Positions 34,150-36,466 of a stretch of DNA of 64,000 nt are shown here, one piece after another; position 1 is the first letter of the stretch; each line of letters starts with the position of its first letter. The position numbers and the translations under genes were made by a program. Under the pieces are notes generated by a model. It was given only the letters and a program-made list of their open reading frames with translations. It did not search any database and was not told the DNA's origin. Source of the stretch: Allomeiothermus silvanus DSM 9946 (GTDB taxonomy: Bacteria; Deinococcota; Deinococci; Deinococcales; Thermaceae); assembly GCF_000092125.1 (NCBI RefSeq), contig NC_014212.1, positions 1,260,001 through 1,324,000 on the forward strand, read 5' to 3'.

Positions 34150-34728
34150 ATGTACAAAGCCGAAGCCAGCATCAGGGTGCCCGCCGACCAACAGCAGGTT
34201 TGGGAGTATATCTCTAAGTACGAAAACTTTGACCAGTTCATGTCCCATGTGGAGGAAGTGGAGATGGAGGATAGCCGCATTTCGGCGTGGCGCTTGCGTG
34301 GGCCGCTGGGCATCCCGGTTACCTGGAAGGCCGTGACTACAGTCATGAACCCGGCCCGTGAGTTGGCCTGGCAATCGGTGGAGGGCTCGATCAAAACCCA
34401 GGGCCACATCCGTGTCGAGCCGGAGGGGGACCAAACCCGCATAGAAGTTTGTGTCGAATACGTCCCGCCCGGCGGTGCGGTGGGAGAGGCTTTCGCCAGC
34501 CTGTTCAAGAACCCTCAGAAAATGCTCGAGCACGACCTGGAGAACCTGCGCGAGATCATCGCGAGCTGGCCCGCGCACGAGCCCGCCCGGCCCGGCCCGG
34601 CGGTGGACTCGGTGGCCGACTCCTCCGAAACCGACGAACTGGCACCACCAACTACTTCGTCTACTCCCAACCCGCTTGAGTCGGAGCTGGTGAAAAAAAA
34701 GACAGCTGAAGGCTACCCTGATCCATAA
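34150..34728 (+). CDS. SRPBCC (START/PYR-PYL-like) domain protein
   Basis: Residues 1 to about 142 form an SRPBCC helix-grip domain: YKAEASIRVPADQQQVWEYI, the KYENFDQFMSHVEEVEM segment and WQSVEGSIKTQGHIRVEP, as in polyketide cyclase/coenzyme Q-binding proteins that bind hydrophobic ligands. The 50-residue tail is Pro/Ala/Glu-rich and low in structure. GGGAGGGGGAAGAGT precedes the ATG. The stop lies downstream of an A8 tract at 34693-34700, and the next gene starts in another frame there. One A less would fuse the two frames. Confidence 0.85.
   Translation: MYKAEASIRVPADQQQVWEYISKYENFDQFMSHVEEVEMEDSRISAWRLRGPLGIPVTWKAVTTVMNPARELAWQSVEGSIKTQGHIRVEPEGDQTRIEVCVEYVPPGGAVGEAFASLFKNPQKMLEHDLENLREIIASWPAHEPARPGPAVDSVADSSETDELAPPTTSSTPNPLESELVKKKTAEGYPDP
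34693..34700 (+). other. A8 homopolymer at the SRPBCC/lipid-kinase junction
   Basis: GTG at 34690-34692 is in frame with the SRPBCC protein and is followed by eight A. The kinase frame carries TGA at 34691-34693, overlapping this GTG. Deleting one A would turn GTG-AAA-AAA-AGA-CAG-CTG into either a kinase start or a read-through fusion. Confidence 0.8.
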
Positions 34729-35662
34729 TCCCAACGCTGGGGGAGCAGGGGCTATCTCGAGCGCCGAGCTCGAGGCTCTGTTGATCGGGGCCGGGTATGC
34801 GGCCCGGCACGTTCCCACCGAGAGCCTGGAGGACTTGGACCGAGCACTGTCGGACCCTGGCGACTTGGTGGTGGTAGCCGGAGGGGACGGTACGGTGCGG
34901 GCTACCGTAGCGCGGTTGGCTGGACGAGGTGTCCCGCTGGCCATCGTGCCGATGGGCACCGCTAACAACATCGGAGGAGCCTTGGGCCTGGTGGGAGACC
35001 CGGCTGAGCTGCTGGGCGGACTGGCTGAGCCAGAGCGCAAAACCTACGACTTGGGATGGGTACGCGGACCTTGGGGAGAGGACTTCTTCCTCGAGGGGGC
35101 AGGTTGGGGCCTCTTCGCCGCCACCATGGCCGTCTACGACCCCGAGGCCGGAAAGAGCCCCTTTCGCGCCCTTACGTCCTTCGTCCAGGCCGTTTCGATC
35201 TTCCAGCTCTGCCCTTTACGGATATCCCTAGACGGCGAGGAACTGGATGAACCGGTAGTACTCTTGCTGGAGGTAATGAATACTCCGGCGCTAGGCCCCC
35301 GGCTGCGCCTGGCCCCCGAGGCTAGCCCCTGCGACGGCTGGCTCGATGTGGTGCTGATTCGCGAGGATGGTCGGGTGGGCCTCACCCGTTATCTCACGGG
35401 GTTATTGCAAAACCGGCTGGAGGAGTTGCCCAACGTGACCGTGCACCGATGCAAGCGACTACAGCTCGAGTGGGACGGCTCACCCTTCCACCTAGATGCA
35501 GAGATCCGTACCGCCGAACACCCTGCGCTGATCGAACTCGAGGTTCGGCCCGCAGCCCTCGAGCTTTGGCTGCCTGCTGGGATCCAACTCCCAGAAGAGA
35601 CTCCACCCCCAGCGGTGCAGGACGGAAAGACCCAGCCTGGGGCTACCCCCCAGACCCCCTGA
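34694..35662 (+). CDS. Diacylglycerol-kinase-family lipid/sphingoid kinase, start uncertain
   Basis: Catalytic DAGK domain: TLIHNPNAGGAGAI (conserved N-terminal motif), VVVAGGDGTVRATVA (nucleotide-binding GGDGT) and IVPMGTANNIGGALGLVG. The C-terminal beta domain carries the usual DGWLDVVLIREDGR. It transfers phosphate from ATP to a lipid. No ATG or GTG lies in this frame before the conserved NPNAGG; the frame opens at 34694, and a TTG at 34781 would remove the motif. A GTG at 34690 fits only if one A of the A8 tract is lost or slipped. The PHP gene follows by 9 nt. Confidence 0.85.
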   Translation, partial: KKRQLKATLIHNPNAGGAGAISSAELEALLIGAGYAARHVPTESLEDLDRALSDPGDLVVVAGGDGTVRATVARLAGRGVPLAIVPMGTANNIGGALGLVGDPAELLGGLAEPERKTYDLGWVRGPWGEDFFLEGAGWGLFAATMAVYDPEAGKSPFRALTSFVQAVSIFQLCPLRISLDGEELDEPVVLLLEVMNTPALGPRLRLAPEASPCDGWLDVVLIREDGRVGLTRYLTGLLQNRLEELPNVTVHRCKRLQLEWDGSPFHLDAEIRTAEHPALIELEVRPAALELWLPAGIQLPEETPPPAVQDGKTQPGATPQTP

Positions 35663-35671
35663 GGTGATCCT

Positions 35672-36466
35672 ATGGATCAACCGGAAAAAACTCCACAGCC
35701 GCCGGTAGAGCCCCCCGAACCTACCAAGCCTACCGCCGAGGAAGTGGCAGCTTCGGGGGCTACCCCCGCTCCGGCCGGGGTGGTGCCCAAGGGGATGATG
35801 CGAATAGATCTGCACTGCCACAGCGAGGCTTCGGCTGATTGCCGTACCCCGCTGGCGGCTTTCCCCGGGCGCTGTAAGGCCCGGGGCATTACCGTACAGG
35901 CCATCACCGACCACAACGAGATTTGGGGAGCTCAGCAACTGCAGGAGATGACCCTGGGTAGCGAACTCACGGTGATCGTGGGTGAGGAGGTCTCGAGCCG
36001 CGACGGTGAGATCATCGGGTTGTTCCTCTGCGAGAAGATCCCAGCGGGCCTGAGTGCCGAGGAGACCGTCGAGCGGATCAAGGCCCAAGGCGGGCTGGTG
36101 CTATTGCCCCACGGCTTCGACCCGCTCAAGCGCTACCGGCTCACCCGCCTGGCGCTCGAGCGCATCGCGGGGCAAATCGACATTGTAGAGAGCTTCAATG
36201 CCCGCATCTCCCGCCCTACTTGGAACCGCACCGCCGCGCAATGGGCCGACGAGCGGGGCCTGCCCAAGAGCGCTGGCACCGATGCCCACACCCTGGCCCA
36301 CGTCGGCGAGGCCTGGGTGCAGACCCCCGAGCGCCCGATCCGCACCCCCGAAGACCTCCTGGCTGCACTGGGCGAAGGCACCGTGATGGGGGAATGGACC
36401 CACCCGGCCCTAGCCTTCGTACAGAAGCTTTGGGATATGGGGCGCAGGCGGCTGATGGGGGCCTGA
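35672..36466 (+). CDS. PHP-domain metal-dependent phosphoesterase
   Basis: The PHP core starts near residue 46: RIDLHCHSEASADC (HxH metal motif), then ITDHNEIWGA and IVGEEVSSRDGEI, PHGFDPLKRY and SAGTDAHT late in the domain, so all metal-ligand motifs are seen. The first 45 residues are Pro-rich and similar to the tail of the preceding gene product. The 264-residue protein resembles TrpH/YciV-like phosphoesterases. It closes the plus-strand group; its substrate is unknown, perhaps a nucleotide or lipid phosphate. Confidence 0.87.
   Translation: MDQPEKTPQPPVEPPEPTKPTAEEVAASGATPAPAGVVPKGMMRIDLHCHSEASADCRTPLAAFPGRCKARGITVQAITDHNEIWGAQQLQEMTLGSELTVIVGEEVSSRDGEIIGLFLCEKIPAGLSAEETVERIKAQGGLVLLPHGFDPLKRYRLTRLALERIAGQIDIVESFNARISRPTWNRTAAQWADERGLPKSAGTDAHTLAHVGEAWVQTPERPIRTPEDLLAALGEGTVMGEWTHPALAFVQKLWDMGRRRLMGA

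Follow-up and report, generated by a model that had tools for sequence, protein, structure and literature searches.

How is a conserved lipid kinase translated when its reading frame has no standard start codon, and is the run of eight adenines at the upstream edge of that frame involved? The question arises from a 64,000-nucleotide stretch of DNA (hereafter the window, G000:C1:1260001-1324000) from the heat-loving bacterium Meiothermus silvanus DSM 9946, a species now often assigned to Allomeiothermus. The sequence-only reading of this DNA had suggested that the run may switch the locus between separate proteins and a fusion of the two. The features of the locus, all on the plus strand, are:

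34150..34728, plus strand: SRPBCC (START-like, Polyketide_cyc2) lipid-binding ORF, 192 aa as encoded, ending in LVKKKTAEGYPDP and the stop codon
34580..34692, plus strand: Pro/Ser/Thr/Glu-rich tail of the SRPBCC ORF, reaching the tract
34691..34693, plus strand: TGA closing the kinase frame upstream, overlapping the tract
34693..34700, plus strand: A8 tract, candidate for slippage, with A9 at the same place in the sister species
34694..35662, plus strand: frame of the YegS/DagK-type lipid kinase, 322 codons plus stop, lacking a standard start
34706..34708, plus strand: CTG in place of the ATG or GTG of most orthologs (ancestral kinase start, now lost)
34781..34783, plus strand: TTG, the first standard in-frame start, located past the NPNAGG motif
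35672..36466, plus strand: PHP-domain phosphoesterase, the next gene in the apparent operon, conserved in the sister species

The kinase frame and its missing start codon

The first ORF contains the Pfam domain Polyketide_cyc2 (1.4e-15; 58.3 bits versus a gathering score of 27.4), which places it among the SRPBCC proteins, and its nearest solved relative is the SRPBCC protein DR_A0006 (PDB 3ggn, 2kcz; 2.9e-13), a 155-residue chain which differs in lacking a kinase. Its frame reads across the tract as GTG AAA AAA AAG ACA and stops at the TAA at 34726-34728. The second ORF belongs to the YegS/DagK lipid kinases, with a DAGK_cat domain (5.6e-18) carrying the NPxxG and GGDGT motifs and a YegS_C domain (8e-17), while the exact subfamily is not assignable because the NCBIfam cut-offs were not reached. 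The kinase fold is predicted with confidence (mean pLDDT 84) and has its first beta strand at residues 6-11, and N12, G16 and G63-G66 are invariant in the kinase alignment. The kinase domain is shared with the DgkB, YegS and BmrU lipid kinases (PDB 2qv7, 3t5p, 2bon; best match DgkB, 9e-13); those kinases have their own start codon and are not known to carry an SRPBCC domain.

The kinase frame opens as TGA (34691-34693) AAA AAA AGA CAG CTG AAG GCT ACC CTG ATC and continues with CAT AAT CCC AAC GCT GGG GGA. No ATG, GTG or TTG is present in this frame between the TGA and the TTG at 34781, which bears out the earlier observation that the frame opens at a stop codon overlapping the tract and has no standard start before NPNAGG. 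The unslipped A8 message contains no standard kinase start, which speaks against a separately made kinase. A protein begun at the TTG at 34781 would lack N12 and G16, both invariant, as well as the first beta strand, and this start was ruled out because the codons upstream of it are constrained as protein. Between 34706 and 34780, before any standard start, comparison with the sister species gave 10 changes, all of them silent (p about 2e-6 in a simple site-count binomial), and since this segment also holds N12, G16 and the first strand, we conclude that it is translated; it is reachable solely by a frame transition or from a non-standard start. Over the whole kinase, dS was 0.81, dN 0.057 and omega 0.07, compared with an omega of 0.08 for the PHP gene and 0.17 for SRPBCC; together with the intact 322-codon frame, the low omega also ruled out a plain pseudogene. 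The downstream ORF is therefore conserved as a protein despite being unreachable in the encoded frame, as expected of a gene expressed through slippage. The absence of a standard start under such strong purifying selection makes it most likely that the kinase is reached through a change of frame at the tract.

With regard to the ancestral start, the codon two before the TLI.N-type motif is ATG or GTG in eight of ten distant orthologs (L003, L004, L005, L006, L007, L009, L010, L111), and it corresponds to the CTG at 34706 in the window and to CTC in the sister species, a codon not known to be usable as a start. The remaining two orthologs are L008, with an ATG further upstream, and L110, from a draft genome (G109), with ATC at the start position. 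In L110 (1483-1510 of the reverse complement) there was no ATG, GTG or TTG start, the ATC lies behind the Shine-Dalgarno-like GGGGAGAGGTGA, and no A-tract was seen near the kinase start; it is possibly a genuine ATC start or a draft-genome error, and because of the preceding GGGGAGAGGTGA it appears that a non-standard start can occur in this kinase family. From the ortholog comparison, the ancestral start codon of the kinase is lost in both M. silvanus and its sister species. A separate promoter for the kinase matching the sigma-70 consensus was not found.

The A-tract in two species

The tract at 34693-34700 is indeed present and is the sole A8 of the window, but with approximately 0.6 such runs expected by chance in 64 kb it is by itself unremarkable. 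What is above chance is that in both species the tract is where the frame changes from one conserved ORF to the other: there are 34 A/T runs of at least eight in the whole genome and 20 in the sister genome, and when all of these were scored by coding potential, the SRPBCC/kinase locus was the only strong frame switch on a sense A-run in both genomes. Coding potential likewise flags as a frame switch a T8-sense run of the second replicon (G000:C2:197279-200286, L090). On the minus strand of the locus, positions 34719-34699 match a terminator-like sequence ending in the T-tract, and no minus-strand gene was seen for it to end.

The sister species, the one other member of the genus compared (G001), has the same SRPBCC-kinase-PHP order and a kinase that is 91% identical. 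In it the tract is A9, SRPBCC and the kinase are once more in different frames, and the codons from the upstream stop to the tract (TAA CCC GCT CGA GTC GGA GTT GGT GAA AAA AAA) and onwards to the kinase include no ATG, GTG or TTG. A homopolymer run of slippage-prone length thus lies at the frame junction in both species, and both tracts are out of frame, by different amounts. Run length in relatives had been proposed as a check on the switch, and it gave this A9, out of frame and without a start codon like the A8. The arrangement was found in these two species only, and none of the phylum-level kinase orthologs examined was a ready-made in-frame SRPBCC-kinase fusion. In the distant lineage of G036, the kinase L010 is overlapped by its own SRPBCC-like gene through an ATGA, apparently an independent pairing, which hints that the SRPBCC and kinase activities belong together.

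The tail of the SRPBCC ORF is the other conserved element next to the tract. Its last 12 residues, SSTPNPLESELV, are identical in the two species, and in the kinase-linked SRPBCC copy it extends right to the lost kinase start codon, while stand-alone SRPBCC paralogs end shortly past the domain without a long tail (e.g. with ISGWPTEASPGPSVTRKD in the sister species). Given its absence from the stand-alone paralog of the sister species, this Pro/Ser/Thr/Glu-rich tail is probably the interdomain linker of a fusion protein. The N-terminal 50 or so residues of the SRPBCC protein in the window (34150-34310) are closer to a second SRPBCC paralog of the sister species (C1:423250-423720, minus strand, L178) than to the positional ortholog, which the remainder of the protein matches; this mosaic N-terminus has possibly arisen by gene conversion.

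Predicted slippage at the tract and the dnaX precedent

Translation of the window locus with different tract lengths gave SRPBCC-kinase fusions of 503-505 aa with 7, 10 or 13 A's, SRPBCC with a short tail with 8 or 11, and an immediate stop with 9 or 12, and in the sister species 7, 10 or 13 A's likewise gave fusions. From the encoded A8, one A fewer or two more lead to a fusion of 503 or 504 aa; the shift needed to reach the kinase is thus -1 or +2 from A8 and +1 or -2 from A9. As A8 and A9 need opposite shifts, slippage by RNA polymerase fits both species and no single ribosomal frameshift does.

We propose that RNA polymerase transcribing the tract, A8 in the window and A9 in the sister genome, would yield mixed messages of differing tract length. 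On messages with 8 A's, and also those with 9, 11 and so on, translation would end just past the tract, so that most transcripts would make the SRPBCC lipid-binding protein alone, while on messages with 7 or 10 A's the ribosome would enter the kinase frame and produce an SRPBCC-linker-lipid-kinase fusion of about 503-504 residues, in an amount set by the slippage frequency. It is fairly likely that the two genes constitute one such slippage-coupled gene, with the fusion coming from slipped messages, and the fusion would probably act as a kinase of membrane lipids attached to a lipid-binding domain. With its own start codon lost, the kinase would have the fusion as its main or only source; for the stricter version, in which the kinase is made only as a fusion dosed by slippage and the tract lengths (A8, A9 and the A10 of dnaX) have drifted, we see an even chance. 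The encoded length could have drifted out of frame in both species because slippage would restore the frame.

The fusion by slippage suggested in the sequence-only reading has gained support from these comparisons, namely the lost starts, the A8 versus A9 tracts, selection on the kinase and the A10 of dnaX discussed below, while we infer from sequence comparison that slippage occurs, that RNA polymerase is its agent and what the ratio of products would be. The companion idea, that the locus might switch to making the kinase unfused and on its own, was not supported: a GTG at 34690 is preceded by GGAG as had been described, but at only 3 nt, which is close for a ribosome-binding site, and in an A7 message this GTG is in frame with SRPBCC. 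A separate kinase from this GTG in an A7 message is hence possible but weakly supported.

Slippage on A-runs has a published precedent in this bacterial family, in Thermus, from which the present host, M. silvanus, is distinct: on the A9 of Thermus thermophilus dnaX, transcriptional slippage is efficient (PMC1088944), with about half of the product full length and messages with one or more extra A's (PMC1088944, PMC5009743). As at the SRPBCC-kinase locus, a sense A-tract lets one gene give two products, but in T. thermophilus dnaX it is the long product that is encoded in frame and the short one that comes from slippage, the reverse of the arrangement proposed here. In a literature search we found no paper linking Meiothermus with transcriptional slippage. 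The E. coli polymerase does not slip on fewer than 8 A's (PMC6260861), which by analogy puts A8 at the edge, as the lower limit for slippage. It also counts against the proposal that published slippage on A-runs mostly inserts, whereas A8 needs -1 or +2.

The dnaX gene of M. silvanus itself contains the longest run of the genome, an A10 at G000:C1:400262-400271 (L068, L184), whose length puts the gene out of frame: as encoded, the product stops at 486 aa, and the tau tail with its conserved DPRFQKLLRTFGGR.RKLVQDTPKAPDAEGA block is in another frame. The sister species has an in-frame A9 and a dnaX product of 638 aa, and among 30 Thermaceae dnaX loci read, 24 had A9, two had A10 and four had no run. 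Since A10 replaces the usual in-frame A9, no single frame of this genome encodes tau, and its synthesis should require slippage. Out-of-frame tract lengths thus appear to be tolerated in the Thermaceae, dnaX included, which is what mending of the frame by slippage would predict. The dnaX of G020 (L212) also has A10, and in those of G019, G015 and G021 (L196, L197, L198) an open frame of approximately 470 aa ends directly after A9, so that a longer product, if there is one, may itself depend on slippage.

Other routes into the kinase frame and wider significance

Ribosomes, too, can slip on the A-tract, and in both species A AAA AAG is preceded at approximately 9 nt by a GGAG placed like an internal Shine-Dalgarno, so that the fusion could be made by ribosomal frameshifting, with a shift of +1 or -2 in the window and, for the sister species, of -1 on A AAA AAA G. 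The two species would need different shifts, since the -1 frame of the window stops at once (GAC AGC TGA) and only in the sister species does the -1 frame open the second ORF, as in programmed frameshifting of the E. coli dnaX type. There was no notable RNA structure around the tract (z -0.78), and a small hairpin there is not conserved in the sister species in a pairwise alignment, so that no sign of a conserved downstream structure as frameshift stimulator was seen; with the Thermus dnaX precedent being transcriptional, we regard frameshifting as decidedly unlikely. Separate translation of the kinase from the CTG at 34706, coupled to the end of the SRPBCC gene, would use the ancestral start position and would find parallels in the apparent ATC start of L110 and in the coupled, ATGA-overlapping pair of L010. 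The matching codon of the sister species is CTC, however, and unlike in L110 there is no Shine-Dalgarno at a usable distance, the GGAG being 20 nt away, while a start at the alternative CTG, 34718, would remove part of the first beta strand (residues 6-11). This route, which also leaves the kept A-tract and linker unexplained, is unlikely.

Two further explanations concern the DNA itself. Phase variation, in which replication alters the tract and cells with A7 or A10 make the fusion, is in line with the difference of one A between the two species and with the frequency of homopolymer switching in bacteria (PMC3711429), but would require both sequenced strains to be off while the kinase is under a constraint similar to that on the neighbouring PHP gene; since dnaX, which cannot be off, drifts likewise in this genome, we consider it very improbable. 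A sequencing error hiding an in-frame A7 or A10, and thus a plain fusion gene, has to be considered as 454 data were used and homopolymers are the usual 454 error. The DSM 9946 genome was, however, finished with Sanger and Illumina correction to a stated error below 1 in 100,000 (PMC3035272), and both independent genomes would need to be wrong, making this extremely unlikely.

The predicted slippage-made fusion has likenesses beyond dnaX. In Citrobacter rodentium tssM1 (A11) and Shigella mxiE and spa13, an ORF also ends soon past the tract and slipped messages give a longer protein (PMC4256274, PMC1088944), but there slippage restores one protein, while here two ancestrally separate genes would be joined on a shorter tract. 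Slippage in orfA/orfB of IS elements likewise joins two overlapping ORFs via an A or T run (PMC1088944), but these are transposase genes, in contrast to a host operon with lipid-related domains.

Few host genes depend on polymerase slippage, and the one published Thermaceae case we found is dnaX. Gene callers are likely to annotate a kinase such as this one as truncated (from the TTG at 34781) or as a pseudogene. If the proposed slippage is true, the SRPBCC-kinase locus would be a second slippage gene of the Thermaceae, in which, within a lipid-related operon, slippage joins two genes that were once separate, and it would offer a direct way to test the tolerance of this family for out-of-frame tracts.
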